A DNA stretch of 52,478 bases, taken from Gudongella sp. Its GTDB lineage: Bacteria > Bacillota > Clostridia > Tissierellales > Tissierellaceae. Where the stretch lies: the NCBI GenBank assembly GCA_024649995.1, contig JANKMX010000010.1, positions 1-52,478 of the forward strand, in the 5' to 3' direction. Shown here one piece after another: positions 9,361 through 36,266 of the stretch. The first letter of the stretch is position 1. Each line of letters begins with the position of its first letter. The notes beneath the pieces are model-generated. The model was given only the letters and a program-made list of their open reading frames with translations, did not search any database and had not been told where the DNA came from. The position numbers and the translations under genes were made by a program.

Positions 9361-9442
9361 AAAAAACCGACCAGCTAGGGTCGGTTACGCTACTGGCTCA
9401 TGCAGGGATTAGGCGTCCATTTTTACCCTGCAATCCAAGCCA
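9361..9442 (-). promoter_or_regulatory. structured leader with intrinsic attenuator upstream of the SLH-chagasin gene
   Basis: On the minus strand the leader folds into an outer stem TGGCT/AGCCA (9442-9438 with 9398-9394) and an inner stem GCAGGG/CCCTGC (9431-9426 with 9407-9402) enclosing an 18-base loop. A terminator follows: AACCGACC/GGTCGGTT (9386-9379 with 9372-9365) and six T. The terminator ends only about 20 bases before the start codon, so it must be conditionally read through. I cannot match the upper structure to a riboswitch class I know; it lacks the c-di-GMP-I core. Confidence 0.65.
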
Positions 9443-9532
9443 CCGGATTTTATCTTTATCCACTAATAATATACCCTTGGAAATACTTATTAGTATTACA
9501 TTTAGATTTCAAAAATGAAACCCAGCTTGCAT

Positions 9533-20576: not shown

Positions 20577-20596
20577 ATTATTTCCTCCGATGACTG

Positions 20597-21070: not shown

Positions 21071-21092
21071 GTTTTCCTCCGCAAATAAAAAT

Positions 21093-21127
21093 AATGTTGG
21101 ATGTCTAACTGTTTGACCTCCAACATT
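21093..21127. promoter_or_regulatory. palindromic operator of the MarR-ABC operon
   Basis: AATGTTGGA and TCCAACATT are perfect inverted arms, with inner GTC/GAC arms, centred between the -10 and the MarR start. The spacing and position suit a MarR dimer that blocks transcription. Confidence 0.75.
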
Positions 21128-21154
21128 ATATATCCAATCATATTTGCTTGTCAA
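21125..21154 (-). promoter_or_regulatory. promoter of the MarR-ABC operon
   Basis: TTGACA (21154-21149) and TATAAT (21130-21125), both perfect sigma-A hexamers, are separated by 18 bases. The -35 lies only 7 bases after the stop of the upstream kinase gene, with no terminator between, so read-through from the 14-gene operon is possible. Confidence 0.85.
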
Positions 21155-21161
21155 TATCTTA

Positions 21162-21776
21162 TTACTTCCTTCTATCCTCAATATCCTTATATTCCTCAAT
21201 CTCCCATCTCTGAACCAGTTTCCTGTCAAGATCCATAACCTTAAGAATTTTTTCCAACAGACTATTTCTGAACTGTATTTTCCAATCAGTCTTTGGTGGG
21301 TCATAGGTGGTTGCAAAGGCCAACAGCCTTCCAATGTCAGCTTCAATCTCCCCCTTGCTTATCTGTTCAAGATCAACCCTGTATATCCTGTCCTCATGTA
21401 TGATAAAATTTCTGAAATTCATATCATTCATTATCATGGTCTCATTGAATACAGCTTGTGTAGCCCTGTAGAAGTCCTTGAGAAATTCCGCCATTTCCTC
21501 AACCATAAACTCATAATTCTTGAGATTCTGATTTTCAGATCTCTCCAGCCAAGCAAGCAGGGTCTCATCTCCCAAATCCTCCAAAAGGAGATAGTCAGGC
21601 CCAACCTCCAGGATATCTGGAACCCTGATACCTTCATTCTTAAGGAGCTTAAGCATCCCTGTCTCTGCGGAGAACCTTTTCATCACCTTGAATTCTTTTC
21701 TTATGGAACTTCCACCATTTCCAATTATCCTAAGCACCCTGTTTCTCTTGCTGACAAGCTCTATTTCCTTATGCAT
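21162..21776 (-). CDS. small protein-kinase-fold (APH/RIO-like) protein
   Basis: A 204-residue protein with a reduced kinase fold. YLLLEDLGD (62-70) resembles the hinge, ND118MNFRN123 matches the catalytic loop HGDxxxxN with His replaced by Asn, and VD135LE takes the DFG position. A candidate ATP-binding Lys is in KEFKVMK. It is shorter than aminoglycoside phosphotransferases (about 260) and nearer to lipopolysaccharide-kinase and RIO-like sets. It is last in the 14-gene operon and overlaps mobB by 16 bases. The substrate could be a small molecule such as a nucleoside or pterin moiety, or a protein; nothing in the sequence decides. Confidence 0.65.
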   Translation of the reverse strand: MHKEIELVSKRNRVLRIIGNGGSSIRKEFKVMKRFSAETGMLKLLKNEGIRVPDILEVGPDYLLLEDLGDETLLAWLERSENQNLKNYEFMVEEMAEFLKDFYRATQAVFNETMIMNDMNFRNFIIHEDRIYRVDLEQISKGEIEADIGRLLAFATTYDPPKTDWKIQFRNSLLEKILKVMDLDRKLVQRWEIEEYKDIEDRRK

Positions 21777-22507
21777 ATCTCTACCTTCCCATCTTCCTTG
21801 TATCCATCCAGTTCCTTAACAACTCCAAGAACTGAATTCCTTAAAATCCTCTCAACAAATGGAACCATTGGAATCTCCCTTCCATCTATCAGAAGTTTTG
21901 TCTCCTGATGATCCACCACACAGTCCTCCCGCTTGGATAGGCCTCTAATTATTCTGTTGCTTAATTCCATGCATGAAAAACCACATGCACCACAGCAATC
22001 CTGGTCCACATCAGGCAAAGGTTCAATGGCCATCTCTTCAATGAGATCCACAAGTCTCATGATATCCCTTGTACCATCGATTGCGGGGAGATCCCTGTAG
22101 CTGTCTATCTCGGCTGCTATCTTTCCTGAAATTGCGAACACCGTCATATCAAGCTTTGCCAGAATGCCTTCCTCATCCTCGGCAGTCACAATTTTTGGAG
22201 CGGAGGTATCTCTTACTCCCTCCATTATTACAAAGTCCTCCTTATGGAATGAAAGTATTTCATTAACAGGGAGCTTGTAGTCAAAAAGCACGTCAGTTTC
22301 CCTGTCTCCCCTTGCAGTGACGGTCTCTGCTCCAGCCTGTCTGTGTCTGTGGGTGTTTGTACCCTCCATATCCATTTTGAAATCATGAAAATGAATCTCC
22401 TTTATGGTCCCCACTGTATATCCTCTTCTCTTTAGCTCCCTAATTATATTCTCAATGGTAGTTGTCTTTCCAGTTTTTGAATGACCCACAACTGATATAA
22501 CCTTCAA
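21761..22507 (-). CDS. mobB: MobB-like P-loop protein with C-terminal cysteine cluster
   Basis: A 248-residue protein. Residues 1-160 are MobB: Walker A GHSKTGKTT (8-16), then the family segments GTIKEIHFHDF and EGTNTHRHRQAGA and the Walker-B-like VIMEGVRD. MobB binds GTP and assists MobA in attaching GMP to molybdopterin. After it comes a cluster, C171-C172-GA-C175-GFS-C179 plus C196, that looks like a 4Fe-4S ligand set (CxxCGxxC type), then about 50 residues of unknown fold. Such fusions occur in anaerobes. Its presence inside this operon is the strongest protein-level link to the molybdenum/tungsten cofactor. GGTGCC precedes the ATG. Confidence 0.87.
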   Translation of the reverse strand: MKVISVVGHSKTGKTTTIENIIRELKRRGYTVGTIKEIHFHDFKMDMEGTNTHRHRQAGAETVTARGDRETDVLFDYKLPVNEILSFHKEDFVIMEGVRDTSAPKIVTAEDEEGILAKLDMTVFAISGKIAAEIDSYRDLPAIDGTRDIMRLVDLIEEMAIEPLPDVDQDCCGACGFSCMELSNRIIRGLSKREDCVVDHQETKLLIDGREIPMVPFVERILRNSVLGVVKELDGYKEDGKVEICIRK

Positions 22508-22523
22508 TTTGGCACCTCCAGAT

Positions 22524-23258
22524 CTATGTAATGATTATGTATGCGATTATCACCGTGGCTGCTGTTGCTCCCATGAAAAGGTAATCCTTTCCCTCCAGGC
22601 GCAGCTGCCTGAAGCTTGTCCTTGTTTCCATTGCCCTAAATCCCCTCATTTCCATGGCAACCCCAAGCTCCCTGGATTTGAGGAGGGAGTTGACGGTAAC
22701 AGGAAGTAGCAGGTATCTGTAGGCCTTAAGCTTCTTCCCCATCCTGATTCCCTTAAGGTCAATTCCCTGGAGCTCCATGGCCATCACCTTGTGGATCATC
22801 TCATTTCTTAAGGTTGGAAGAAACTTTGCTGCAATCGAGAGCATGAAAACAAGCTCATATGGAAGTTTCATCTGCAGCAGTCCCTGTATGAGATCCCTGG
22901 TGGTGCTGGTAAGTATCAAGAAGGATGATGTTATTATTATGGATACCCTAAGCAGGAACTGTGCAGCCCTTTCAATGCCGTAATCCGTAAGGATAGTCAC
23001 CCCCATAAGCCTGATTAGAGGCTCCCCAGCGTCCGTTAACACACTCTGAACAATTGCTAAAGCAAGAACTACATATATGAGCTTGCCAAGCCTGTGTACC
23101 GCCTGGTATATACCCGTCCCCAAATAGACCAAAGCGAGGGCGGCGAGGATGAAAAGAAACAGAAGCATCCTTGTATCACTGACTCCAACTGCAAATGAAG
23201 ATATAGTGGCCACAAAAAACAGCTTTGACCTTGGGTCAAGCTTTCCCCTTTCAACCAT
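22524..23258 (-). CDS. ECF transporter T component (EcfT/CbiQ family)
   Basis: A 244-residue membrane protein. It begins LDPRSKLFF, the family's N-terminal signature, and has five to six membrane segments. Two coupling motifs of the Ala-Arg-Gly type appear as AMELQG and AMEMRG near the C-terminal coupling helices, the sites that contact the two ATPases. The start is the ATG at 23258 behind GGGAGGG, overlapping the A2 stop by 8 bases; an upstream in-frame start would lie deep inside the A2 gene. It should form a complex with the two ATPases and the S component at 26172-26720. Confidence 0.9.
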   Translation of the reverse strand: MVERGKLDPRSKLFFVATISSFAVGVSDTRMLLFLFILAALALVYLGTGIYQAVHRLGKLIYVVLALAIVQSVLTDAGEPLIRLMGVTILTDYGIERAAQFLLRVSIIITSSFLILTSTTRDLIQGLLQMKLPYELVFMLSIAAKFLPTLRNEMIHKVMAMELQGIDLKGIRMGKKLKAYRYLLLPVTVNSLLKSRELGVAMEMRGFRAMETRTSFRQLRLEGKDYLFMGATAATVIIAYIIIT

Positions 23259-23922
23259 TACAAGCCCTCCCTTCGGACAGCACAATAGTTCTATGTGCCA
23301 AGCCTTCTGGAAAATCATAATCATGGGTTATTATAAGCATTCCAATTCCTCTTTCGCTCAGATTCTTGAGGACCTCCTTCAGCACCCCTGCTCTTTCCTC
23401 ATCCAGGCTTGATGTAGGCTCATCAAGAATCAGGTAGTCGGGGCTTCTCATCAGCACAGATGCAAGGGCTAGAATCCTTTTCTCCCCAAGGCTAAGGTAG
23501 TATGGATATGTATCTCTTGATCCCTCCAGACCAAATAAGCGGATAAGCTCTTCAGCCTTGCCTTTGGCAAGATCAATGTCCTCACCCAGGAACTCAAAGC
23601 TCCAAAGGAGTTGATCAATCAAAGTCGCACCAAAAATCTGATGGTCGGGATTCTGAAACAAATACCCAACCCTCATACCAACCTCCCCCAATGCAAGATC
23701 TTCAACACTAACCCCATCCAGCATTATCCTGCCTGATCGGGGACCAAGCATACCCATGACCAGCTTTGCCAAGGTTGTCTTTCCGGAGCCGTTTTCTCCA
23801 AGAAGCACAGTAATCTCATCCTTGTCAAGACCAAGGGAAAGGTTGTTGAAGAGATCAGGTCCTTTGCCATAGCCAAAGCTTATATTTTCAATCTCAATAT
23901 ATCTGGTCTTATTCTGAGACAT
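23251..23922 (-). CDS. ECF transporter ATPase A2
   Basis: A 223-residue ABC ATPase: Walker A GENGSGKTT, Q-loop YLFQNPDHQIFG (the NPDxQ string typical of ECF ATPases), signature LSLGEKR (LSGGQ with Gly to Leu change), Walker B YLILDEPTSSLD and H-loop ITHD. I start at the ATG at 23922 after GGAAGG. It lies between the A1 ATPase and the T component in one transcription unit. It is somewhat short at the C-terminus compared with EcfA (about 280), closer to the CbiO-like short form. Confidence 0.9.
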   Translation of the reverse strand: MSQNKTRYIEIENISFGYGKGPDLFNNLSLGLDKDEITVLLGENGSGKTTLAKLVMGMLGPRSGRIMLDGVSVEDLALGEVGMRVGYLFQNPDHQIFGATLIDQLLWSFEFLGEDIDLAKGKAEELIRLFGLEGSRDTYPYYLSLGEKRILALASVLMRSPDYLILDEPTSSLDEERAGVLKEVLKNLSERGIGMLIITHDYDFPEGLAHRTIVLSEGRACNG

Positions 23923-23941
23923 TTTCCTTCCCCCACTCAAT

Positions 23942-23978
23942 AAATAACACAAGAGTTCCGGTTCTTTTTGTGTTATTT
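23942..23978 (-). promoter_or_regulatory. intercistronic hairpin between ECF ATPase genes
   Basis: AAATAACACAA and TTGTGTTATTT form an 11-bp perfect stem that overlaps the stop of the A1 gene. The 15-base loop contains part of a short repeat also found at 39739-39766. Without a T-run it is better read as a stability or processing element than a terminator. Confidence 0.5.
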
Positions 23979-23982
23979 TCTG
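23955..23982. repeat. 28-base short repeat, copy 1
   Basis: GTTCCGGTTCTTTTTG is identical to the copy at 39739-39766 and the next 10 of 12 bases also match. Both copies are at the 3' end of a minus-strand gene, next to a hairpin. Confidence 0.6.
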
Positions 23983-24626
23983 ATTTCAATAATCTGGTCT
24001 GCCAAGAGGATATTTTCCTTTGAGTGATCCACCATAACTATTGTATGACCCGAATCACTCAGCTCCAAAAGGAGTCCTCGTATCCTGTCCTGTCCCTTCA
24101 CATCCACCCAGCTGGTAACTTCATCCAAAAGTAGAATTCTTGGTTCCATCATCAGTACCGATGCAATTGCAACCAGCTGCTGCTCTCCCCCAGATAGCCT
24201 CGATGGATTCTCATGTCTAAGATGCCCTATTCCCACAAGTCCAAGTATCCTCTCAAGCCTTTCTTTTATCTCATCACGAGTAACACAGAGATTCTCAGGA
24301 CCAAATGTCAGCTCATCCTGTACGGTTGAAAGGAACAGCTGGGTCTCAGGATTCTGGAATACCATACCCAGAAGCTTTATGATATCTCCCCTTTTCATGT
24401 CCTTCAGGTTCTTTCCCAAAAGCCTGATTTCGCCTTCAATCTCACCCCTGTAGAGTTCAGGTGCAAGACCACTTATGCATCTTAGCAGGGTGGTCTTTCC
24501 CGAGCCGTTGCTTCCTGTAATGGCGGTGATGGTTCCCTCATATGTCATGAAATCCAAGTTCCTTATGGACCAAGCGGGTGATTTTTCATATCTGAAGCCA
24601 AGGCCTGAAACCTCCAAACTTATCAT
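23973..24626 (-). CDS. ECF transporter ATPase A1
   Basis: A 217-residue ABC ATPase: Walker A GSNGSGKTT, Q-loop MVFQNPETQLF, signature LSGGEQQLVAIAS, Walker B ILLLDEVTSWVD and an H-loop His in VMVDHSKENIL. NPETQLF after the Q-loop is characteristic of ECF-type ATPases. The start at 24626 follows GAGGTG and overlaps the stop of the upstream SUOX-fold gene (ATGA). With A2, T and the S component it gives a complete, probably dedicated ECF importer within one operon. Confidence 0.9.
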   Translation of the reverse strand: MISLEVSGLGFRYEKSPAWSIRNLDFMTYEGTITAITGSNGSGKTTLLRCISGLAPELYRGEIEGEIRLLGKNLKDMKRGDIIKLLGMVFQNPETQLFLSTVQDELTFGPENLCVTRDEIKERLERILGLVGIGHLRHENPSRLSGGEQQLVAIASVLMMEPRILLLDEVTSWVDVKGQDRIRGLLLELSDSGHTIVMVDHSKENILLADQIIEIRK

Positions 24627-25147
24627 TCTTGCACCTCGATTTCCACTACCCACTTACATCTTCTATTGCTGAACATGTCAGAGAGTATTATTGTCTCATA
24701 AGGACCCCTACCTCCGGAATCCATATCACCCAAATATTCTCCATCCTCCATATATGCAAGGTACAAGTTACCGGATTGCTGAACCTCATCCCGCCCATAG
24801 GCGACTGAAAAGCCATCTGCTCCGCTGACCACTACCTTTTCCCATTCAGAGTAGTCAGCCTTAAGGTAGATCATGAGAATGGAGCTTAGCTGAACACCAA
24901 TGTATTGGTGTTCACTGGGGTCTGAGCTTGAGGTGTCAAGAGTTCCTTTAAATGTTTCCTCCCCTGCAAGCCTTATATCCTCAAGACTCAAGGTCTCTTC
25001 CCCATCCTCCCATCGAAGGACTATTTGTGAGGATTCAAGAAGCTCTTTTCTGCGTTCCCTCTCATCCATGTTCATCAGGAGAGCAGCGATAAATATGATT
25101 GCCAGTATTAAAATTGTGTATATAGCTAGCTTGTTTGTCTTTTTCAT
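24623..25147 (-). CDS. membrane-anchored SUOX-fold (molybdopterin-binding-like) protein
   Basis: A 174-residue protein with one N-terminal membrane anchor (about 7-27) and an external domain of about 140 residues. The domain has the recurring pattern of this operon: a short beta segment, G-x-x-L-S-x-x-L, an aDGY-like turn (VVVSGADGFSVAYG), a YLAYMEDGE strand, a GGRGPYE turn and a final KWVVEIEV strand. This matches the oxidoreductase molybdopterin-binding (PF00174-like) fold reduced to its core. The only Cys, in NRRCKW near the end, is not where the molybdenum-ligand Cys of sulfite oxidase lies. Overlapped on both sides by neighbours. Function inferred from context only. Confidence 0.72.
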   Translation of the reverse strand: MKKTNKLAIYTILILAIIFIAALLMNMDERERRKELLESSQIVLRWEDGEETLSLEDIRLAGEETFKGTLDTSSSDPSEHQYIGVQLSSILMIYLKADYSEWEKVVVSGADGFSVAYGRDEVQQSGNLYLAYMEDGEYLGDMDSGGRGPYETIILSDMFSNRRCKWVVEIEVQE

Positions 25148-26160
25148 TATTTTGGCTCCCTTAGGAAGTATGGGACTATCATATCCTCATACTGACATGA
25201 ACCATGATCTCCTCCGTCATCTGTCTCTATCATTCCATGGTCTGCAGTTGCTATTATTGCACCCTCCCAAACCTTGTCAAGCTCAATGAGATAATCCTCC
25301 ACAACCTCCACGTATTCAAGAGTATTCTTGTGGTAAGGCCCGAACTGATGACCTCTGTCATCAATTCCATGAAAATGTATAAAAACAAGGTCAAATCCCT
25401 GATCTATTGATTCAAGTGAAGCTTTGAATATCTCATCATCGGTGTCCCCGTTCTTGTTCAGATCAACGTTTAGAACTGGCTCCACCTCAGTGTTAAGTAT
25501 CTTTATATCCCCCTCCAAAAGCATTGAATCCAAGCTGTTTTCCACGGCATAGCCAAAGATTGTCTCCACCTGAAGGTCTCTGTAGGAGCGGTCATGAACT
25601 CCGTTAACTGGAGGGAGTTCCCCAGTTATTATTGATGCAAAGCCTGCATTTGTAACGGGTGTAAAGACGCTTATGGCCTTACCCATGTACAGGTTCTCAA
25701 AATAGTCAAATCTGTCTTCAGATGATAGCATTTTGTATTGCTCATGGGTGAATCCATCCAGTAGGATCGCCAAAACCGGAACACCCTCCTTCAGATACTC
25801 CAAAGTCTCCTGGTGGAGGATTCCTATTCCAGGAAGCTGGTCTCCAGCGTATATGGAAACAAGATCACTCACCAGAACTCCGTCTTCCCCTACAGCTTCT
25901 ATTCTGCCGCCATCTTTCCTCAGCAAAAAATCTCCAGTGACATGTGTCATATCCCCATCACGGCTTATGAGCATAGTAGTGTCTGATTTTTCATATATGC
26001 TTGAGAATGGGGTATCCCTACCTGGTATATATCCTGAAACAATGGTTTCCTCACCAGTGAATACGTTGATGCCATCGTATTGGTCTTCCTCAAAGGAGCA
26101 GCCTGAAAAGGATAGGATAGTTGTAACAAGAAGTATGATTGCGATTTTCGTTTTACCCAT
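25147..26160 (-). CDS. NPP-type phosphodiesterase/alkaline phosphatase superfamily lipoprotein
   Basis: A 337-residue lipoprotein (signal ending LSFSGC). The C-terminal 230 residues are a type I phosphodiesterase/nucleotide pyrophosphatase domain (PF01663-like). Metal and nucleophile sites are recognisable: LLDG, TNAGFASIITG with a Thr before Asn as nucleophile candidate, DDRGHQFGP, ATADHGM and GDHG. The spacing resembles NPP and phosphonoacetate hydrolase enzymes, which need two Zn ions. The start at 26160 follows AGGAGTG. On the outside of the membrane, beside an ECF importer and mobB, it could split a dinucleotide cofactor before uptake; this is my inference. Confidence 0.82.
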   Translation of the reverse strand: MGKTKIAIILLVTTILSFSGCSFEEDQYDGINVFTGEETIVSGYIPGRDTPFSSIYEKSDTTMLISRDGDMTHVTGDFLLRKDGGRIEAVGEDGVLVSDLVSIYAGDQLPGIGILHQETLEYLKEGVPVLAILLDGFTHEQYKMLSSEDRFDYFENLYMGKAISVFTPVTNAGFASIITGELPPVNGVHDRSYRDLQVETIFGYAVENSLDSMLLEGDIKILNTEVEPVLNVDLNKNGDTDDEIFKASLESIDQGFDLVFIHFHGIDDRGHQFGPYHKNTLEYVEVVEDYLIELDKVWEGAIIATADHGMIETDDGGDHGSCQYEDMIVPYFLREPK

Positions 26161-26171
26161 TGATTTCACTC

Positions 26172-26720
26172 CTATAGATCGATATTTAGTCTGTCCATGG
26201 CGCTGAGCATATTCCATGCCAGAACTCCCCCAAGGGCTCCTGAAAGCGCTGAACCACTAAGAAGGAGAATCAGGGTCTCCGCCGGCAGCCTGAAAAACAT
26301 GGCATTTGAGATAAATGTTCCGGTCACATTTGCCGCCATGCATCCTGCCATAAAATGCAATATGTTGAACCTTTTACTTCCAGCAAGAATAAATACAAGA
26401 TCTGCAGCAAGGCCCGGGAGGGTGTAGGATACAATGCTCATTATTCCATGGGTTCCCATGGCTCCTGTTACTATGACAAGCAGGCCCTGTATGATCCCGA
26501 TGAGGGTTCCAGTTCCAGGCTTTTTCACAATCCCTATTCCAAGTACAATCCAAAGCATATAGAAGCCACCGGCAATTGCACCACCAGGTATGAACAGGGG
26601 GCCGGTTATTATATGTACAAGGGGAACCACAATTGGTTTTGTTGCAACTCCAAGGGCGGAAACCACTGCTATTGCAACAAGCTCCAAGACAGAGAAGCCT
26701 CTTAGCGCCTTAATTCTCAT
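26172..26720 (-). CDS. ECF transporter S component (substrate-binding membrane subunit)
   Basis: A 182-residue hydrophobic protein with about six membrane segments, the size and topology of ECF S components. Segments such as VHIITGPLFIPGGAIAGGFYM and a C-terminal GALGGVLAWNML region are compatible with the YkoE/ThiW-like sets, but I cannot assign a substrate. I start at the ATG at 26720, 7 bases after GGAGAG; longer TTG and ATG options fall inside the site or overlap the previous gene. Context (mobB, riboswitch, phosphodiesterase) suggests a pterin-type or other cofactor precursor; thiamine-precursor or cobamide uptake are alternatives. Confidence 0.8.
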   Translation of the reverse strand: MRIKALRGFSVLELVAIAVVSALGVATKPIVVPLVHIITGPLFIPGGAIAGGFYMLWIVLGIGIVKKPGTGTLIGIIQGLLVIVTGAMGTHGIMSIVSYTLPGLAADLVFILAGSKRFNILHFMAGCMAANVTGTFISNAMFFRLPAETLILLLSGSALSGALGGVLAWNMLSAMDRLNIDL

Positions 26721-26737
26721 ATTAACACTCTCCATTG

Positions 26738-27214
26738 TCAATCAATTCTCATTTCATCCACATGCTTGATCCATCTTTGACTGAAGGGATCACTCCTGAT
26801 CACAAGCTGATAGGGTCCGTTGCCTCCTCTTTCCCTTGATTTAAGGTCTTCCCCATCCCTCATATATGCAAGGTAAACGTTGCCCGGTTCCTTGAGCTCC
26901 TCTCCGGATAGCATTACCCTATAGCCATCAGAGGCATTGAAGGTTATCGTATCAAAGTCTCCTTCTATACCCAGATGCTTCAGGAAATCCATTATCCAGA
27001 CTCCCGTATATTCCGTTTCAACGGGCTTGCTGCCGCTGCTCCTTACAACTGCAGGAAAGCTTATCCCATTACTCATGGCAAGGATGTCCTCCCTTTCTAC
27101 TACCGTCTGCATATCATCTATGTAGACAATGATATCAGAGTTTCCCCTACCCATAAACAAAAATACCCCAAGAGCAATACTCAGGAATACTATTATTGCC
27201 ATGATTTTTCTCAT
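26738..27214 (-). CDS. membrane-anchored SUOX-fold (molybdopterin-binding-like) protein
   Basis: A 158-residue protein: N-terminal membrane anchor (about 3-21), then one SUOX-like domain with YTGVWIMDFLKHLGI, FNASDGYRVML, VYLAYMRDGE, GGNGPYQLVI and a closing KHVDEM. It closely parallels the product of 24623-25147 in size and layout, so the two are likely paralogues arisen within the operon. No cysteine is present at all. It sits between the S component and the NapH-like electron-transfer protein, the latter only 2 bases away. Confidence 0.72.
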   Translation of the reverse strand: MRKIMAIIVFLSIALGVFLFMGRGNSDIIVYIDDMQTVVEREDILAMSNGISFPAVVRSSGSKPVETEYTGVWIMDFLKHLGIEGDFDTITFNASDGYRVMLSGEELKEPGNVYLAYMRDGEDLKSRERGGNGPYQLVIRSDPFSQRWIKHVDEMRID

Positions 27215-27216
27215 AT

Positions 27217-28404
27217 CTAATCCCCTGCCTCTTTCTCCATCGACTGGCTGATCCCGTTTCTCACCGCATTCAGGTATCCCCGGGAGGTTGCGGTTGCCCC
27301 GCTTACAGTATCCACATCTATGCCCTGTACTTCAATTATCTGCCGCTCCATGTTCCTGAAAACCTCCTCATAGTAGCCGGAGCTCTCCCTATGACCTGTT
27401 ATATCTATATATTCAATCCTACCTTCGTCAACTCTTATCTCAGCCATGATCCTTCCACCAAATCCTGTTCCCACACCTATATATGAACCATCATGAAGGT
27501 CCAGTGATTCAGTTGACCAGCCTTTACCCTCAACATCCCCTGCCAATGGTAGCAGAAAATATGCAGCTAGGAGAACTGAAAGTCCCATTGCCAAAAATGT
27601 CCCCGTCCTTATCCTCCTGCTTCCGATATAAACCTGGTAACCCTTTGGATCCTTTATGCAATCAGACTCAACACACTTCATGCAGCAAACACACTCCGGT
27701 GGAAGCTCTCCCTGAATTCCGAACTGGATCTCAACTGGGCAATCCTTCAGACAATAGGTGCAGCCTTTGCATTCAGCCTTGGTTCTGATGCTCCAAAGAC
27801 CCAGTACGCTAACCAAGCTCTGGTAGGCTCCCAGTGGACACAGGAACCTGCAAAAAATCCTCTTAGTGAAAATTGAGCCTATTCCAATGGCTGAAATAAC
27901 AATAATGCCACCCATTGAAGCAAATCCCGAAAATATATTCATCAAGCCCAACCATGGTGAATATGGAGCAAGGACACTCCCAAGCCCCACAATACTTAGG
28001 GTCATCACAAGAAAGAGAACCCCATATTTTATGTAATCAAGCTTCTTCTCCTTCTCAACCCCAAGACTGTAGCCCCTTATGCCCATTTTCTTTCCCATAT
28101 GATTAAACAGATCCTGTAAAGCTCCAATTGGACACATGCTTCCACAAAGAAACCTTCCTGAAAGAAGTGATGCAAGGGTCACTGACCCTGTTAGGGCAAT
28201 CCCCCTGGTCACTCCCCTCCATCTGTAGGATACATCCGTAAAGGCCGCCTTTAGATGGCTCCATCCACCATAGGGATTCAGGTCTGAGGGAGACAGGGGT
28301 CTAACCTCAATACCCCCTCTTATGTAGAAACCATATGCAATGCAGTTGATTGCAATAATTATGAATGCAGCAATCTGAAGTCTGTTTCTCTTGCTAGTTT
28401 TCAT
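27217..28404 (-). CDS. NapH/NosR-like membrane 4Fe-4S protein with C-terminal FMN-binding domain
   Basis: A 395-residue protein with about five to six membrane segments. Two membrane-proximal CxxxCP motifs (C87/C91, C185/C189) are the NapH/NosR/RsxB-like hallmark. A ferredoxin domain follows with C212-C215-C218-C222-P and C238-C241-C244-C249. After the last membrane segment an FMN_bind domain (about 305-390) ends in the flavinylation motif VSGATATS (S368-T371), where ApbE attaches FMN to the second Thr. Such proteins carry electrons across the membrane. Start at 28404, 9 bases after GAGGG. Gene order places it with the second flavoprotein upstream (11-base overlap). Confidence 0.92.
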   Translation of the reverse strand: MKTSKRNRLQIAAFIIIAINCIAYGFYIRGGIEVRPLSPSDLNPYGGWSHLKAAFTDVSYRWRGVTRGIALTGSVTLASLLSGRFLCGSMCPIGALQDLFNHMGKKMGIRGYSLGVEKEKKLDYIKYGVLFLVMTLSIVGLGSVLAPYSPWLGLMNIFSGFASMGGIIVISAIGIGSIFTKRIFCRFLCPLGAYQSLVSVLGLWSIRTKAECKGCTYCLKDCPVEIQFGIQGELPPECVCCMKCVESDCIKDPKGYQVYIGSRRIRTGTFLAMGLSVLLAAYFLLPLAGDVEGKGWSTESLDLHDGSYIGVGTGFGGRIMAEIRVDEGRIEYIDITGHRESSGYYEEVFRNMERQIIEVQGIDVDTVSGATATSRGYLNAVRNGISQSMEKEAGD

Positions 28405-29974: not shown

Positions 29975-29981
29975 ATTCAAC

Positions 29982-30827
29982 CTACTCCACTATTATTCTG
30001 TCTATATTTGAAACCCATTGGGGTTTGTTTACATCCCCAGCTTCCTTCTGCCCCACTACAAGCTTGTAGGGTGGTCCTTTATCAGAATCGTATTGGGAAC
30101 CGTCCTCCTGCCATGCCACTATAACAGGCAGTTTCTTTGAATCATCGGTCTCATCAATGTAATCCTGTTTCCTGATCTGATCCACAGTAAATGTCATTTC
30201 ATAACCGTCTGTTGCAACTATCCTTACAGTCTGGGCATCAGAGCCTATTCCAGCCTCCTCAGTCAACAATCCCCACAGCTTTATACCCTTGAAGCTGGTG
30301 TGGCCTGTGGACCCAAAGCTGTTAAGCCAATAGTAGTCTGCAGAGTATATGAGGGAATCCATGGATTTAAGCTGTGAAAGATCAAGGCTCAATGGAGTTG
30401 ACACCCTTCCCTCCACCTTGAGCAATGGTCCCTCCTGAACGATTTGGGGCTCCGCAACCACTGGTTCTTCCTGGGCCTCATCACTGGTCTGTTCAGTTGC
30501 TTCCTCCTTTTGCTCTTCAGGCACCAGCTCCGGTTCAGTCTCCACAACTTGTGCAGGCTCATCTTCTCCCGCTTCCGGCTCCTCCTGGTCCTGAGTATTG
30601 TCAGGCTCTTCCTCAACGTCAGCCTCCCCGGCTGAAATTTCATCCTGTATGGACCCGTCTGGAGCAGGTGTTTCTTCAGGCTCCTGGGAAATATCCTCCC
30701 CTTCCTCCTGAACCTCAGCCATATCCTCGGGCTCCTGGGGTGTAGTATCCTCACCTCCGGAGCAGCCTGCTGCAAATAGGGAAATCACCAGTAGCAATAT
30801 CAACAATATAGAAATCCTTTGCTTCAT
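29982..30827 (-). CDS. lipoprotein with acidic linker and SUOX-fold domain
   Basis: A 281-residue lipoprotein: signal with lipobox LFAAGC, about 110 residues of Glu/Pro-rich, highly acidic linker (many EE, PE, QE pairs), then one SUOX-like domain (about 135-281) with FKGIKLWGLLTEEAGI, VRIVATDGYEMTF, LPVIVAWQEDG, GPPYKLVVGQ and WVSNIDRIIVE. The long linker would lift the domain well away from the membrane, suiting contact with S-layer-level partners. I choose the ATG at 30827, since AAAGGA lies 9 bases upstream; ATG codons 6 and 9 bases earlier are possible. Confidence 0.8.
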   Translation of the reverse strand: MKQRISILLILLLVISLFAAGCSGGEDTTPQEPEDMAEVQEEGEDISQEPEETPAPDGSIQDEISAGEADVEEEPDNTQDQEEPEAGEDEPAQVVETEPELVPEEQKEEATEQTSDEAQEEPVVAEPQIVQEGPLLKVEGRVSTPLSLDLSQLKSMDSLIYSADYYWLNSFGSTGHTSFKGIKLWGLLTEEAGIGSDAQTVRIVATDGYEMTFTVDQIRKQDYIDETDDSKKLPVIVAWQEDGSQYDSDKGPPYKLVVGQKEAGDVNKPQWVSNIDRIIVE

Positions 30828-30844
30828 GTCCATCATCCTTTCAA

Positions 30845-30873
30845 GGAAGGGACAGGTTTGACCCTGTCCTTCC
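30845..30873 (-). promoter_or_regulatory. intercistronic hairpin downstream of the giant SLH gene
   Basis: GGAAGGACAGG pairs with CCTGTCCCTTCC (one bulged C) around GTCAAA. There is no T-run, so an mRNA processing or stability element fits better than a terminator. Confidence 0.55.
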
Positions 30874-30876
30874 CAA

Positions 30877-33800
30877 TCAATCCTTGAGATATCTGTATAG
30901 CATCACTGCAACTTCAGCCCTTGTGGCAGGTCTTGCTCCTCCAAAGGAACCATCTGGGAAGCCCTTTATGATCTCATGGTCGGTAACCTTGGCTACTGAC
31001 TCCCATGCCCATTGGGGTATGGAATCGCTGTAGCCGGCCAGGATCGAATCAATGTCCTCCTGCGGGATTTCCTCCTGATAGAGCTTGCCCAGTATTGCTG
31101 CAATTTCAGCTCTTGTTATCTGCCCATCGGGCCTGAAGCTTCCATCAGGATATCCTCCCACTATTCCAAGGTCAGCAGCTGCAAGTACGTTGTCCATGTA
31201 CCAGCTTTGTTCACCTATGTCAGAGAAGGGATTATCCATTCCATCCCTTATGTCTGCACCGATTATCCTGGTGACCAGTGTGACAAATTCAGCCCTTGTT
31301 ATGCTGTCATTTGGCCTGAAGGCATCACCATCACCCTTGACATATCCCATGGCAGACATTTTGCTTATATGCTCCCTTGCCCAATGGCTTGATGAATCCT
31401 GGAATTCCTCATGCTCCAACCTCAATGCTGCCCCTCCGTTGGAACCAACCATCAGAATATCATCCTCACAATCAACAAAGTATACATCATCCCATTGTCT
31501 TGAAGGAAATACGCTGTCACTGCTGAAGCTTTCGAATTGTCCCTTTTCAAGGTCAGCCCTCACAACTCCCTGGCCCTTTGTGGCAATGTAGATCACACCG
31601 GATTCATTCTCATCTGCAATAATCATCCTTATATCACTATCCTCACGGAGACCTGGATAAAGCTCCATTGCTGTGTAGACTGTCCTTTCCCCGTCCTTGA
31701 TGTAATCAGCTTCCCCCTTGGTGAAGCCAGGCGCGTTTCCAGATCTTGTTATCCATACTCCACCGTCGGCATCCCTTGAGATGCTTCTTGTCCAGTTTAT
31801 GTTGAAGTTTGAGCTGTCAAAACCTTCAAAGGTTGTCAATTCACCGTCTGAAGACAGATGTTGATAGCCTCCCAGATATTCAGGCTTGTCTTCCGTTCCC
31901 TCAGTGTCGGGATAGTAGCCAATCCAGACTCCTCCCTTGCCGTCAGGCTCAAGCGCATCAACGGAATATGGAAGCAGGCCTTCCTCCTGGGTGTAGATTT
32001 TCCAATTATCCTGTGAATCAACATGGGCAAGTCCATTCTGTGTTCCAATCCAGATTCCGCCCTTGCCATCATCCTCCAGCTCCTGTACAAAGCAGGCTGG
32101 CAAGCCTGTGCTTTCCTTGGTAAGTGAAGTCCACTGGTCATCCTGGAGAACCAGTATCCCCCTTGGCTCTGTAGGACCCCCATTTGCTATCCAAAGCTGG
32201 CCGTTGTCCCTCTGTACAATTGCGTAGGATGTGTCAACCTTGACCATTTCTCCATCCGCAGTATATATAGAATTAATATGTGACCATTTTCCCTCCGGTG
32301 ACCTTACAGAAATTCCACCGTTATTTGTGCCGATCCATAGATTTCCATCCTTGTCAAATTCCATGGCCCTAACGCTGGCTTCTGTCATTTCCCTGCCGGT
32401 GTTGTTTCTGTAATCAATCCATATCTCTAACTCCATAGCTGGAACGACATCATCTCCAGGAAGCTTCATATCCCAGTCTGCAATATCCTCCACCATTGGC
32501 TTTTCATAGTCCCCGGTACCCACTACTATACAATCAGTCCACTTTACCCACATGGACTTGTTCTCTTCAATTATCAGTCTCAATGGTCCATAGGCATTGT
32601 TGTAGGCGTAGCCTATGGATGACTCATCCGGCACCAAGGGATATCCGTCAACTGCGTATGCCAGAATTATCTTCTTCAGCTGTCCCTTGGAGTTCACTAC
32701 CCCGTTGATGACCTGGTCAGCACTCCTAAGGACCTGGTTGTAGTTTGGACCGCTGAACACCCTGATGCTGGGGGTTTCAACATCATCCTCAAGCTCTGCA
32801 ACCTTGGAGATAATGTCCCAAAGTATAACACCCTCAAACTCCCTCACTCCATCTCCGGAATAGATGTCCTTCAGAGCATGTCCTGTCAGGGATTCAACCT
32901 GGCGAAGACTCAGTGTTACGGGCTCTTTTATCTGTGAGCCGGTAATTCTTAGAACTGGCTGGTCGAGATATTCCATATATGGGTCTCTGTTGTGATTCCA
33001 GCTGCTTGAAGGATCAATGGGCTTCATTGTCTCCTCGCCTGTGCCGCTTCCCTGTGAATCACCAGTTGATACGGGTTCACCGCCTCCCACAATTATCTCC
33101 TTAAGGAACTGAACCTGGTTTGATCCATTGGTATCATTGTAGCCAGTCTTACCGAATATGACCCTAATGGGTCCTCCATCATTTCCAAGCCCTGGATTAT
33201 ATCCTTCATCCGTTGGACTAATGACATATGGGTAGCCGTTGAAGCCATAGGCAACAAGGGGTGGTTGTCCCGAACGGATTGGTTCCACCGATTTACCGTC
33301 GAAGCTACCGTCTCCCAGATCACCTGCATCCTTTTCATAATAGCCATAAAGGGAGTAATCCCTGATATCACCAAGTGTCATAGGGGCAAAGTTGTAGTTG
33401 TCAGCTGCAATAAACTGTACTGTGGTACTGTCCGGCAAGTTTTTATCCATTCCTGCCTCCTCAAGAAGATCAAGCAGCTTGACACCCTTGTAGGTGTTGT
33501 AGTACCAGAAGTACTCGCTGTTTGAAAGACTGTACTCATCCTGGTGCATTATGTCCTTCATCTTCTCGATTTCCGATACCATGTACACCTTCTGTCCTTC
33601 CATAGCATCTCCATGTATTATCAGCTCATAATCTGTGTACCTTGGGTCTTCATATGGTCCATAGGTGTGCTCGTATATGTTTTTGGCATCCTTTTCCTCA
33701 ATGTATATATATGCAACATTTGAGAATTCCTTGGCTTCAGATTCCTCCTGCCCGTAGACCAGCTTGAAGCAGCCGTTGTTGTTGTACTTGTCCTCCCTAT

Positions 33801-34830
33801 AGCCAACATCGGTGTCCAGGTATACATAGGGAACCTCATTGATCCCGAATGCCACCGTATAGTCTCCTGCCTCCTGGATTGGTACGGTCAGGATTGTCTG
33901 CCTTGACTTGTTCTTGAAGGTTAAGTTCCCGGCATTGTCCTTTGCCTTGACATAGTTGTCGATCAGATATCCTGCATTGATTCCTTCATAGGTGTTCTCC
34001 ACAATCTCACCACCTACATTCTCAAAATGGGATACCCTTTCATGCCCCTCCAGGTCCTCCTCTATCTGTTTCAGAGATATTGCCCTGTAGCCCTCAACTC
34101 CAGGACCCTCTATGGTCAAGGTTGCGCCTGATATTGCATCAATATTGTAGGGGGCTCCCTCATAGGAAAGATGCCTGTAAGGTGAATCCTCCCCAGCTGG
34201 AGCAGATTGTGGCTCATCTCCAACTGTAATCTTAACTACCTCCTTGCCCCATCTGGACATGTTCATATCGTCAATGCCTGTCTGCCCAAAGGCCAGCTTG
34301 GGGAAGCCCTCATCCAGGTCAGCTTCAGTTAGTGCCCTGTCCTCCCATTGGACAGGAGGCGAAAAGATATTTTGTGGAAAATCGGCCAGTACCGCTGAAT
34401 ATTTTGCCAGCATTGGTCCAACCTTCTCGCTTGTGGACTCCGTGAAATCAGTGTATGTATAGACATCCCAAAGCTCGCTTATGGTCTTCTGGAATTTGAA
34501 CCCGTCAGCACATAGGAAGTCCACCACATAATCCTGGTCATCCTTTAGGTTGTCCTCACCTATAAGCTCAAGAAGGTCATAGCCCTTAACCTTCACTATC
34601 TTGTGGAAGCCAAGACTGTTGTTTGTTGAGTAGATCCTTTCCTGAATTATGTACTCGTCCCAGTCCTCCTGACCAATTAACACTTCCTGTTTCACTCCGC
34701 TTCCGGTTATGACAAGTTCTCCGGATGCTGCTTCTGCAGCAGGTACAAGGAAACCAAATTGTCCAAGTACCAGTGCTATTGCCAAAAGGAAGCCAACAAG
34801 AGTATTGCTGCACATTCTTCTTACATTCAT
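30877..34830 (-). CDS. giant S-layer protein: three SUOX-fold domains, beta-propeller and SLH anchor
   Basis: A 1317-residue exported protein; start at 34830 behind GGAGGG, signal peptide ending AAEAA. Three SUOX-like domains lie at about 38-205, 398-585 and 625-775. Between the first two, IDAISGATLT (S234-T237) resembles an FMN-attachment motif. Residues about 815-1140 hold repeated WIG blades (NLWIGTNNGG, GGIWIGTQNGL, GGVWITRSG) of the two-component-regulator (Reg_prop) propeller type. Three SLH repeats (about 1147-1317; GYPDGSFRPDG, GFPDGSFGGARP) give wall anchoring. Cys is rare: four sites in the mature chain, no obvious molybdenum-ligand pattern. I do not know a described protein with this architecture. 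Probably an outward-facing partner of the membrane redox proteins. Confidence 0.88.
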   Translation of the reverse strand: MNVRRMCSNTLVGFLLAIALVLGQFGFLVPAAEAASGELVITGSGVKQEVLIGQEDWDEYIIQERIYSTNNSLGFHKIVKVKGYDLLELIGEDNLKDDQDYVVDFLCADGFKFQKTISELWDVYTYTDFTESTSEKVGPMLAKYSAVLADFPQNIFSPPVQWEDRALTEADLDEGFPKLAFGQTGIDDMNMSRWGKEVVKITVGDEPQSAPAGEDSPYRHLSYEGAPYNIDAISGATLTIEGPGVEGYRAISLKQIEEDLEGHERVSHFENVGGEIVENTYEGINAGYLIDNYVKAKDNAGNLTFKNKSRQTILTVPIQEAGDYTVAFGINEVPYVYLDTDVGYREDKYNNNGCFKLVYGQEESEAKEFSNVAYIYIEEKDAKNIYEHTYGPYEDPRYTDYELIIHGDAMEGQKVYMVSEIEKMKDIMHQDEYSLSNSEYFWYYNTYKGVKLLDLLEEAGMDKNLPDSTTVQFIAADNYNFAPMTLGDIRDYSLYGYYEKDAGDLGDGSFDGKSVEPIRSGQPPLVAYGFNGYPYVISPTDEGYNPGLGNDGGPIRVIFGKTGYNDTNGSNQVQFLKEIIVGGGEPVSTGDSQGSGTGEETMKPIDPSSSWNHNRDPYMEYLDQPVLRITGSQIKEPVTLSLRQVESLTGHALKDIYSGDGVREFEGVILWDIISKVAELEDDVETPSIRVFSGPNYNQVLRSADQVINGVVNSKGQLKKIILAYAVDGYPLVPDESSIGYAYNNAYGPLRLIIEENKSMWVKWTDCIVVGTGDYEKPMVEDIADWDMKLPGDDVVPAMELEIWIDYRNNTGREMTEASVRAMEFDKDGNLWIGTNNGGISVRSPEGKWSHINSIYTADGEMVKVDTSYAIVQRDNGQLWIANGGPTEPRGILVLQDDQWTSLTKESTGLPACFVQELEDDGKGGIWIGTQNGLAHVDSQDNWKIYTQEEGLLPYSVDALEPDGKGGVWIGYYPDTEGTEDKPEYLGGYQHLSSDGELTTFEGFDSSNFNINWTRSISRDADGGVWITRSGNAPGFTKGEADYIKDGERTVYTAMELYPGLREDSDIRMIIADENESGVIYIATKGQGVVRADLEKGQFESFSSDSVFPSRQWDDVYFVDCEDDILMVGSNGGAALRLEHEEFQDSSSHWAREHISKMSAMGYVKGDGDAFRPNDSITRAEFVTLVTRIIGADIRDGMDNPFSDIGEQSWYMDNVLAAADLGIVGGYPDGSFRPDGQITRAEIAAILGKLYQEEIPQEDIDSILAGYSDSIPQWAWESVAKVTDHEIIKGFPDGSFGGARPATRAEVAVMLYRYLKD

Positions 34831-34853
34831 AGTCTCCCTCCTCAAATGTAAAT

Positions 34854-34886
34854 GAACGGGCGGTTGCAAAATGCCCTCGCCCGTCC
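34854..34886 (-). promoter_or_regulatory. intercistronic hairpin between the two SLH genes
   Basis: GGACGGGCG and CGCCCGTTC form a 9-bp stem with an inner GCA/TGC helix, in the 73-base gap after the first gene of the operon. No T-run follows, so it may set the ratio of the first gene's mRNA to the rest. Confidence 0.6.
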
Positions 34887-34903
34887 ACATTCAATACTAT
34901 GGT

Positions 34904-36049
34904 CTACTCTGCAAATAGAGTGTTGTAAACTATCACAGCAGCCTCAGCCCTGTTTACAACCTTAACCGGTTCAAAGCTATCTCCTGCAACCTCTGCAAAA
35001 ACTCCCTGAGCCTCTAGCCATGCAACTTCATTTGAAGCCCACTCAGGTACGATGTCCTTGTCCATGAAGTTTGATTTTTCCATTACAAACTTGTCCAATT
35101 TAGCCTGATCAACAATTCCGGCCATAACAGCTCCCCTTCCGGCAACCGCTGCAATTTCCTGTCTGTTTATCACCTTGTCAGGCATAAATGTACCATCTGT
35201 GTACCCTGTAAACAATCCGTTATCAACAGCTGCCTGGACATATGGTGCGTGCCACGCTTCAGCTGTTACATCAGAAAAGCTTCCCTCATAGTCTCCAAGC
35301 TCATAGCCCAATGACTCAACCATAATCTTGGCAAACTGGGCTCTTGTGAACTCCTTCTCAGGTGCATAGATTCCATCGCCCATTCCATTTATTATTCCCT
35401 TTTCAGCCATGGCCATTATAGCAGTCTGGGCATAGGCATACTCCTCTGTTATATCTGTGAATTCTATTGCTGGCATCTCTTCAGCAGGCTCCTCCTCAAC
35501 CGGTTCCTCAACCACAGGCTCCTCTACTGCTGGCTCTGCTGCTGTAACCTTTATATCCACAACTAGCTTGTATACAGTATTGAATTCTCCCTCTTCCTTA
35601 ACTTTCCTGTAAACAACAATCTCATCAGTCTCAGGATTATCATCATTGTCTATTGCTTCCCCATCAACCTCATAGGCCATTACGAACTTCAAGGCTTCAT
35701 CCATAACATCTGAAAGTGGTTGTGGGTCTATAGGCCAAGCATCAGCTGCTGTAAATTCAACCATTCCCTCTTCCAAATCAAGCCCTGCCATTTCCTCCAA
35801 TACATAAGCAAGACTTACTCCCTTGACAATTACAGATTTTTCACCGCCCTTGGAGTTGTATATGTATTCCTCGTCAATCTGACCTTCTTCTGACACTGCC
35901 ATAAGGTCCTCCAGAGTAAAGTGAAGTGCCTCTTCAATGCCCTCACCTGATACGGTTACAACCGCATCCTCCTCAGCAAATGCAAGCTGAGTCAATGACA
36001 TGGCAAGAACCAGCATCATAGTCAATAATCTTAAGTTGCTTTTTTTCAT
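34904..36049 (-). CDS. SLH protein with SUOX-fold (molybdopterin-binding-like) domain
   Basis: A 381-residue exported protein: signal peptide (about 1-25, ending LAFAEE), a SUOX-like domain (about 28-165: VKGVSLAYVLEEMAGLD, VEFTAADAWPIDP, FVMAYEVDGEAI, YKLVVDIKVT), a Glu/Pro hinge (EEPVVEEPVEEEP) and three SLH repeats (about 190-381; GYTDGTFMPDKVINRQE). No cysteine is present. Start at 36049 behind GGTGGAAG; an ATG six codons upstream lies inside the site. As the first gene after the riboswitch it is probably the most strongly expressed, as befits a surface protein. Confidence 0.87.
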   Translation of the reverse strand: MKKSNLRLLTMMLVLAMSLTQLAFAEEDAVVTVSGEGIEEALHFTLEDLMAVSEEGQIDEEYIYNSKGGEKSVIVKGVSLAYVLEEMAGLDLEEGMVEFTAADAWPIDPQPLSDVMDEALKFVMAYEVDGEAIDNDDNPETDEIVVYRKVKEEGEFNTVYKLVVDIKVTAAEPAVEEPVVEEPVEEEPAEEMPAIEFTDITEEYAYAQTAIMAMAEKGIINGMGDGIYAPEKEFTRAQFAKIMVESLGYELGDYEGSFSDVTAEAWHAPYVQAAVDNGLFTGYTDGTFMPDKVINRQEIAAVAGRGAVMAGIVDQAKLDKFVMEKSNFMDKDIVPEWASNEVAWLEAQGVFAEVAGDSFEPVKVVNRAEAAVIVYNTLFAE

Positions 36050-36094
36050 TTTTCTTCCACCTTTCATATTGTTTTGATCAAATGGAAAGAAGCT

Positions 36095-36128
36095 AAAAAA
36101 AAATCGACATCCCTGTCTGGAATATCGA
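36095..36128 (-). terminator. riboswitch-controlled intrinsic terminator
   Basis: TCGATATTCC and GGGATGTCGA pair (10 bp with G-U pairs) around AGACA, followed by nine T. The 5' arm (36128-36119) contains the 3' strand of the aptamer's closing stem (36126-36121), so the two structures exclude each other. It ends 45 bases before the first start codon. Confidence 0.88.
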
Positions 36129-36226
36129 CGCCCTTCTCCTTTCCAACAGGAGGCACAGCCGTTTCCAGCTGAACCCTAACGGCAGGTCAGCCATTCATTG
36201 CCAGGCCAATCTGCTCGGAGAATATT
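36121..36226 (-). ncRNA. candidate Moco/Tuco (molybdenum or tungsten cofactor) riboswitch aptamer
   Basis: A 106-base leader closed by AATATT/GATATT. Inside are CTCCGAGC, the block GGCTGACCTGCC, a hairpin CAGCTG-GAAA-CGGCTG with a GNRA tetraloop, and GCCTCC...GGAGAAGGGCGTCGA. I recall these blocks from the MOCO RNA motif (RF01055). The CAGCTG hairpin, the CTCC/GGAG pairing and the closing stem fold by hand. mobB and eight molybdopterin-type folds downstream agree with the ligand. Ligand binding should stabilise the closing stem and free transcription (an ON switch). Another class remains possible. Confidence 0.65.
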
Positions 36227-36237
36227 TGATTAACAAC

Positions 36238-36266
36238 ATTTTAACATACTCACCTTTTAAAGTAAA
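36238..36266 (-). promoter_or_regulatory. promoter of the 14-gene operon
   Basis: TTTACT (36266-36261) and TAAAAT (36243-36238) with an exact 17-base spacer. Transcription would start just before the aptamer. A 12-base perfect palindrome, GTAAAGCTTTAC (36262-36273), overlaps the -35, which suggests an added protein-based control. Confidence 0.7.

Follow-up and report, generated by a model that had tools for sequence, protein, structure and literature searches.

What does a riboswitch for a molybdenum or tungsten cofactor control when the genes behind it encode surface proteins, flavin and iron-sulfur (Fe-S) redox proteins, and an energy-coupling factor (ECF) transporter? This question is raised by a locus in Gudongella sp., on contig JANKMX010000010.1 of assembly GCA_024649995.1, of which we analyzed positions 1 to 52,478 (the window). 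A block of 14 co-directional open reading frames (ORFs), mostly overlapping or tightly spaced, occupies the minus strand from 36067 to 21162, and its structured leader matches RF01055, the Molybdenum/Tungsten riboswitch. The ORF listing and this match confirmed the layout given in a preliminary description of the DNA. All operon coordinates below are on the minus strand. We conclude that the operon is probably an acquisition system for the molybdenum or tungsten cofactor (Moco/Tuco) or its molybdopterin part. Computation established the gene set, its riboswitch, and its co-conservation across genomes. Three further computational results point to acquisition: a leader platform predicted to be of the OFF type, retention of the operon in genomes without detectable MoaA and MoaC, and a protein with the predicted sulfite oxidase (SUOX) fold that resembles PruR and lacks the molybdenum (Mo)-ligating cysteine. 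Import or salvage of a cofactor or precursor, one suggestion of the preliminary description, is thus now the best-supported function.

The aptamer (36120..36232) scored 60 bits against a gathering threshold of 36. It aligned with the full RF01055 model, positions 1-135, with the positions of stem P3 deleted. Moco/Tuco RNAs without P3 have been tied to tungsten-cofactor metabolism (PMC2408646), and the missing stem suggests that the operon leader is an aptamer of the tungsten-cofactor type. An intrinsic terminator at 36103..36129 overlaps the end of the aptamer match; the aptamer's 3' part is complementary to the terminator's 5' arm and loop. The predicted antiterminator duplex has an energy of -9.7 kcal/mol, which was reached by 8 of 200 shuffles.

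We compared this leader with those of other genes by seeking a hairpin followed by a U-run and asking whether the 3' strand of stem P1 of the aptamer is part of the terminator's 5' arm. Among 30 operon leaders, the terminator lay downstream of P1 in 28 and overlapped it in none; the other two had no terminator and were left unscored. It was also downstream in all four leaders of further gene 1 units (G059, G046, G029, and G002), those of G002 and G029 being possibly full operons whose contigs stop within genes 2 and 1, respectively. The 36 leaders of synthesis or transport genes gave 32 downstream, 3 overlapping (G003, G091, and G024), and 1 unscored; the class of 21 of them rests on a same-strand MoaC 3-13 kb downstream, that of 5 on MoeA, and that of the remaining 10 on a reading of the neighboring genes. 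In contrast, the terminator overlapped P1 in 16 of the 19 leaders of aldehyde oxidoreductase (AOR) genes, which encode cofactor users, with 1 downstream and 2 unscored. Antiterminator pairing between the aptamer 3' segment and the terminator 5' half, at no more than 10 of 200 shuffles, was found in 25 of 30 operon leaders (29 scored), 22 of 37 leaders of synthesis, transport, or other genes (37 scored), and 0 of 19 AOR leaders (16 scored), these counts coming from an earlier version of the P1 finder and the terminator positions from the corrected one. The operon leaders of G050, G107, and G118 failed this shuffle test; the hairpins picked for G050, G107, and G078 look unlike real terminators. 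The motif GCAAAGG occurs in 16 of 19 AOR leaders, and GGAAAGG stands there in all 36 synthesis or transport leaders and in 29 of 30 operon leaders. In the aligned examples of AOR leaders (e.g., L020 6902-7029 and L100 5042-5151), CCTGC replaces CCTCC.

Since the terminator lies downstream in operon and synthesis leaders and overlaps P1 in AOR leaders, the operon should be OFF when the cofactor is plentiful. We predict that ligand binding turns the synthesis genes and the operon OFF and the AOR enzymes ON, the AOR leaders forming a predicted ON-type platform. Our first reading had taken terminator overlap as an ON switch for the operon; the comparison assigned OFF to the operon and ON to the AOR leaders only. 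The operon leader shares its platform with synthesis and transport leaders, so the operon is regulated like an acquisition unit. The preliminary description had seen the operon mainly as a surface electron-transfer system. This role was not established. The platform is of the acquisition (OFF) type, unlike that of the leaders of cofactor enzymes, and on that ground capture or import is the more probable task of the redox proteins.

The host genome contains five copies of RF01055. Their contexts, judged from neighboring ORFs, include moeA/moa genes (contig C103, where Pfam confirmed MoaC, MoeA, and MoaA), an AOR gene (C90), and this operon, and another copy (C39) precedes genes that by eye encode a tungstate ABC transporter. 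Copy L017 (G000:C75, 10769-10887, minus strand, 75 bits) faces convergent plus-strand genes, running into their 3' end, and has an AOR gene and what by eye is an fdhD ORF nearby; it may act in antisense. At L088 (G056) and L090 (G043), a Moco riboswitch stands before an ORF that by eye resembles a pyrroline-5-carboxylate/aldehyde dehydrogenase, perhaps a tungsten-independent substitute for AOR.

We then examined conservation in 150 genomes of the host's order, scoring presence of the operon by a homolog of gene 8, a phosphodiesterase (PDE). Such homologs were found in 38 genomes. Inspection of 35 neighborhoods revealed the full order, genes 1-2-3-4-5-6-S-PDE-9-A-A'-T-MobB with or without a final kinase, in the host's own genus and in families f19 and f6. 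Other families have a shorter core of S-PDE-9-A-A'-T-MobB-kinase, mostly with the FMN and FMN-SUOX genes in front, and its gene order varies in family f3. Two f3 genomes (G059 and G046) have genes 1-5 on one contig and the ECF core on another, and G029, a third, shows the same separation of the core from gene 1, which is truncated where its contig stops. Each part is led by its own RF01055, so that in these three genomes the set probably forms two co-regulated units instead of one. Of the 38 genomes, 33 could be assessed from coordinates read by hand, and RF01055 precedes the operon in 30 of these; in the other five (G010, G045, G095, G100, and G122) it is cut by contig ends.

The same arrangement extends beyond the order. 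An alignment search of a named-genome collection with the S component (EcfS) yielded 247 relatives, and the locus counts cover the best 80, which include Sedimentibacter, Geosporobacter ferrireducens, Alkaliphilus, Pelotomaculum, and Syntrophomonas. Same-strand matches in these 80 loci were S in 74, A' in 72, A in 68 (the models for A and A' also pick up other ABC ATPases), T in 66, gene 9 type in 61, gene 4 type in 57, PDE in 53, MobB in 51, and kinase in 45. Our own covariance model detected 59 riboswitches in 51 of the 80 loci, 58 of them on the EcfS strand. Of the 80 loci, 48 have a riboswitch upstream on the EcfS strand, as do 34 of the 45 that have at least 8 kb of upstream sequence. A scan of 14 EcfS loci with the whole of Rfam identified the Moco riboswitch in 11 and no thiamine pyrophosphate (TPP) or tetrahydrofolate riboswitch at Rfam cutoffs. 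The feature is real and conserved: co-conservation, a check that the preliminary description had itself proposed, was borne out in both collections, and so was its claim that a Moco-type riboswitch leads a conserved group of genes for surface PF00174-like, flavin/Fe-S redox, ECF, and MobB proteins. That description would have been undone by an S component belonging to an unrelated vitamin; on this point the S component does fall in PF09819, but the riboswitches of the 14 loci are of the Moco class in 11 and of the TPP class in none.

We next asked whether the operon is kept where cofactor synthesis is missing. In the 150 genomes, MoaC was detected in 91 and AOR in 86. The operon was present in 13 of 18 genomes with AOR and without MoaC (the 13 belong to five genera in four families), 21 of 68 with both, 1 of 23 with MoaC alone, and 3 of 41 with neither. 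With genomes taken as independent, the difference between the first two groups has a P value of 0.002, and that between AOR-positive and AOR-negative genomes among those without MoaC a P value of 9e-7. Counted from the operon side, 16 of the 38 operon genomes are without MoaC, and 13 of these 16 have AOR enzymes. The operon is thus tied to Mo/W enzymes. Eight operon genomes without MoaC are at least 95% complete (G029, G043, G046, G056, G058, G059, G069, and G091) and have from 1 to 12 AOR matches; G056 is a single contig. MoaA was likewise undetected in all eight and MoeA in six. No riboswitch found in the first seven precedes a moaA/moaC cluster, and neither do the two placed ones of three in G091, which argues against loss of the cluster by contig breaks. 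The six genomes without MoeA would need a cofactor with the metal already inserted; molybdopterin could be the starting point in G091 and G046, which retain MoeA/MobA/MobB-like genes. In the raw table, five AOR-positive, MoaC-negative genomes have no gene 8, and three of these are likely explained: G002 carries the riboswitch with genes 1-2 where a contig breaks off, and its moa genes may have been lost in the same way; in G008, MoaA adjoins a contig end, and MoaC probably lies beyond it; and the AOR match in G026 (E value, 6e-4) is taken as the one below the curated cutoff.

The third line of evidence comes from the proteins with a SUOX-like fold. Gene 9 (24623..25147) had no Pfam match of its own, and we identified it as a core membrane-anchored PruR-like protein with AlphaFold and Foldseek. 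Its model, built from an alignment of homologs of genes 9 and 6, reached a pLDDT of 93.2. The best Foldseek match among 350,542 PDB chains was PruR (7kou; E value, 2.3e-7; TM score by target, 0.69), followed by SoxCD, sulfite oxidase, and SorT. A sequence-profile search placed 7kom, an Oxidored_molyb-domain protein, on top (E value, 7e-4) and PruR 7kos next (0.05). The N-terminal helix of the model is taken as a membrane anchor. Gene 9 thus shares with PruR the predicted SUOX fold, a predicted extracytoplasmic location, and the absence of the Mo cysteine. Its only cysteine, Cys164 near the C terminus, is invariant in 34 of 34 sequences and is a candidate metal or pterin contact.

No SUOX-fold protein of the operon has the cysteine ligand to Mo that marks SUOX-family molybdoenzymes. 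Genes 1 and 6 are cysteine-free, the sole cysteine of gene 3 is Cys25 of its lipobox, that of gene 4 (Cys83) is outside the SUOX domain, and none of the six in gene 2 is, by eye, at the Mo-ligand position. Gene 1 (34904..36067) encodes a secreted protein with one PF00174-like domain and three S-layer homology (SLH) repeats. Gene 2 (30877..34890) encodes a 1,337-amino-acid surface protein in which a Reg_prop propeller is combined with three SLH repeats and as many as four SUOX-like stretches. Two of the stretches are clear and two are weak (independent E values with our own profile, 6e-11, 1e-7, 7e-4, and 0.02), and its PF00174 score is below the Pfam cutoff. Around residues 251-258 a motif, D-A-[IL]-[ST]-G-A-T, is kept in 15 of 17 sequences; it resembles ApbE flavinylation sites. 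Gene 3 (29982..30836) encodes a lipoprotein with a PF00174 domain (E value, 8e-8), and gene 6 (26738..27214) a membrane-anchored SUOX-fold protein (PF00174, 24.4 bits against a cutoff of 24). The PF00174 model found two places in the host genome, both within the operon.

The remaining genes encode redox proteins, a transporter, and candidate cofactor-processing proteins. Domain calls with Pfam and NCBIfam upheld the earlier ones: SLH in two proteins, PF00174 or PF00174-like domains, FMN_bind in two, a NapH/NosR-like Fe-S protein, ECF A, A', and T, and MobB. The identities given here for genes 6 to 9 and 14 correct the earlier calls. Gene 4 (28394..29980) joins an RnfG-like FMN_bind domain, with a TGAT motif, to a PF00174 domain, and gene 5 (27217..28413) is a NapH/NosR-like membrane Fe-S protein with an FMN_bind domain and a DTVSGAT motif. 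Gene 7 (26172..26741) is the S component (PF09819; E value, 3e-15), with 46-68% identity to 22 homologs; PF09819 is, as we take it, the 'YkoE family', and the gene 7 profile matched no PDB chain. The T component, gene 12 (22524..23324), belongs to the CbiQ family (PF02361, 73.9 bits against 25). The best NCBIfam model of both ATPases, A (gene 10; 23973..24653) and A' (gene 11; 23251..23952), was ECF_ATPase_1, below the curated cutoff. An ECF transporter is therefore encoded, with S and T above their cutoffs and two ABC ATPases whose best models are of the ECF type. Gene 8 (25147..26217) is a lipoprotein type I phosphodiesterase/nucleotide pyrophosphatase (PF01663; E value, 1e-11; 45.1 bits against 23). 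Residues D154, T189, D286, H290, D326, H327, and H338 are invariant in 25 sequences, and these are presumably the residues that bind two metals and attack phosphorus in nucleotide pyrophosphatases. A SUOX-like stretch stands N-terminal to the PDE in 5 of 13 long gene 8 homologs (independent E value, <0.1; 1 of 260 shuffles), a weak sign of direct partnership. Gene 8 had no match in PHROGs and, as the only query, found nothing in viral-contig or named-genome contig collections. Gene 13 (21761..22507) is MobB (PF03205 E value, 9e-25; TIGR00176 mobB above cutoff) with a putative Fe-S domain (PF04060, just under cutoff). Gene 14 (21162..21776) is a RIO/APH-type kinase (PF01163) whose catalytic residues D118, N123, and D135 are invariant in 20 sequences; its best PDB match was amicoumacin kinase (E value, 9e-5).

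From these data we infer the ligand, the substrate, its direction, the order of steps, and the substrate of each enzyme, as follows. At low intracellular Tuco/Moco, the leader antiterminator would form and the operon would be read; at high levels, the folded aptamer would let the terminator form. SLH-anchored, lipoprotein, and membrane-anchored SUOX-fold domains would capture the pterin cofactor and pass it inward, with the FMN and Fe-S proteins holding it reduced or reducing it at the surface. The extracytoplasmic phosphodiesterase would remove a nucleotide or phosphate and could split molybdopterin dinucleotides, and the ECF transporter would import the product. Inside, the kinase would restore the phosphate, a role that its likeness to APH-type kinases fits, and MobB would bind, convert, or deliver the cofactor. 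In its fullest form, this would be the first bacterial uptake of intact Moco/Tuco: SUOX-fold proteins without the cysteine would relay the cofactor from the surface to an ECF importer and so into the cytoplasm. Some anaerobes could then operate many tungsten enzymes without their own cofactor synthesis, and Moco/Tuco would be a 'vitamin' shared within anaerobic communities. We advance this fuller proposal tentatively, at somewhat short of even chances.

Three other explanations were weighed. The main rival, which we consider improbable, is that the ECF set exports FAD or FMN for flavinylation by ApbE of the products of genes 4 and 5, and perhaps 2, in the service of extracellular electron transfer. 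The Listeria EetB-FmnA-EcfAA' locus, a flavin exporter and electron-transfer system, likewise has ECF genes beside extracytoplasmic FMN-binding proteins; the two FMN_bind proteins here carry flavinylation-like motifs, and in Firmicutes ECF exporters are found together with NapH-like and Rnf systems (PMC9973259). The Listeria locus differs in that ApbE stands beside its ECF genes, whereas no ApbE domain was found among the 14 proteins here (the rest of the genome was not searched for it), and a Moco riboswitch, MobB, a phosphodiesterase, and a kinase are present. Moreover, the ECF core occurs in several families without genes 1-3, 5, and 6 and retains the Moco riboswitch there, and the S component belongs to PF09819 (EetB itself was not compared). 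Flavin export would leave the Moco feedback, MobB, the PruR-like proteins, and the link to loss of MoaA/MoaC without a reason.

Less probable again is import of a simple pterin (tetrahydropterin or folate-like) or a thiamine precursor, with the riboswitch only signaling pterin status. Here PF09819, which we take to be linked to thiamine precursors, and PruR, which binds small reduced pterins (PMC13259868), count in favor; the riboswitch scan of the 14 loci, MobB, and the association with W/Mo enzymes count against. We give the lowest probability to export or surface display of Moco/Tuco, in which the SUOX proteins would be unusual surface Moco enzymes supplied by the ECF set. The PF00174 domains would suit such enzymes, and the nearest precedent is that of two P3-less RNAs before putative sulfite oxidases in Syntrophomonas wolfei, described in 2008 (PMC2408646). 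Against it, the domains lack the Mo-ligating cysteine, the platform is the OFF type of synthesis genes rather than the overlap type of AOR genes, and the operon is kept in genomes without detectable MoaA/MoaC.

Acquisition of Moco/Tuco has points against it as well. PF09819 is named for cobalt in addition to its presumed link to thiamine. The PruR pocket is truncated and likely unable to hold Moco according to a review (PMC13259868), so that the ligand of the SUOX domains in this operon may be a smaller pterin. Some ECF transporters work as exporters (PMC9973259). No riboswitch was found beside the operon in G103, G109, and G137 (G137 has one weak match at an unlisted position) or upstream in 11 of the 45 EcfS loci with at least 8 kb of upstream sequence. 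Because 21 of the 68 AOR genomes with MoaC keep the operon, it is not only for auxotrophs, and the other 47 do without it. Two AOR-positive, MoaC-negative genomes, G098 and G104, have no gene 8 and no explanation. Three operon genomes (G010, G050, and G081) have neither AOR nor MoaC, other Moco enzymes not having been searched for there. MoaE was undetected in 32 of the 38 operon genomes, including many with MoaA and MoaC (22 of the 38 have MoaC), so the loss of single synthesis genes is to be read with care; these genomes may have a divergent or replaced molybdopterin synthase. Finally, most of the compared genomes are draft or metagenome assemblies.

Acquisition of the cofactor would combine features of several known systems. 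RibU, ThiT, and FolT are ECF vitamin importers under cofactor riboswitches, and here too a single operon, with a cofactor riboswitch predicted to be of the OFF type, contains S, A, A', and T; a logic of stripping outside and rephosphorylating inside is plausible. This operon differs in its Moco/Tuco riboswitch and in adding surface SUOX-fold proteins, redox proteins, a phosphodiesterase, and MobB. Isd, the heme relay of Gram-positive bacteria, consists of wall-anchored multidomain NEAT binders, a lipoprotein, and an ABC-type importer. The logic of anchored multidomain binders plus lipoprotein plus importer for a metal cofactor is alike, with a SUOX fold in place of NEAT, an ECF importer, and riboswitch control. 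Sulfite oxidase and MsrP (YedY) share the PF00174 fold; the domain here is short and lacks the Mo-ligating cysteine. PruR of Agrobacterium is likewise an extracytoplasmic SUOX fold without that cysteine, and differs from the present proteins, which occur in several copies, some with SLH anchors, and adjoin ECF genes, with gene 9 having its invariant Cys164. PruR signals via DcpA and is often annotated as an oxidoreductase, according to the same review, which describes the passage of pterins across membranes as unknown (PMC13259868). A DcpA-like (GGDEF/EAL) domain was absent from the 14 operon proteins in the Pfam scan.

Moco is described as unstable and oxidation-sensitive. Dietary Moco has been reported in Caenorhabditis elegans (PMC9793310), and the categories noted from a survey of riboswitch regulons include Moco biosynthesis and Mo/W transport, with none for Moco uptake among them (PMC3766115). 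Among the literature matches listed, which covered titles and the beginnings of abstracts with most subscription journals outside the scope, there was no bacterial importer of Moco or molybdopterin and no description of this gene set. If our proposal is true, Moco/Tuco joins the vitamins exchanged among bacteria, absence of moa genes no longer implies absence of Mo/W enzymes, and cysteine-less SUOX-fold proteins become candidate cofactor carriers. The operon supplies named genes, cultured hosts, and a regulatory readout for testing Moco exchange in bacteria. From the leader comparison it further seems that a single riboswitch class has both OFF platforms, for acquiring, and ON platforms, for using, in the same clade and even in the same genome.

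The predicted transcription unit is bounded upstream by a promoter-like site, TTTACT-17-TAAAAT (36266..36238; 9 of 12 consensus matches), and downstream by the sigma-70-like site of the next unit (21154..21125; 12 of 12). The promoter scan returned 41 such sites, and shuffled sequences gave 31.6 ± 4.7. One of the 41, within gene 8 (25280..25253; 11 of 12 matches), makes an internal transcription start possible. The unit directly 3' of the operon (16904-21346, minus strand) contains two MsbA-type ABC exporters and an ORF that by eye encodes a MarR-like regulator. Elsewhere in the window, a c-di-GMP-II-GAG riboswitch lies at 9370-9453 on the minus strand, scoring 40.3 bits at a gathering score of 40.

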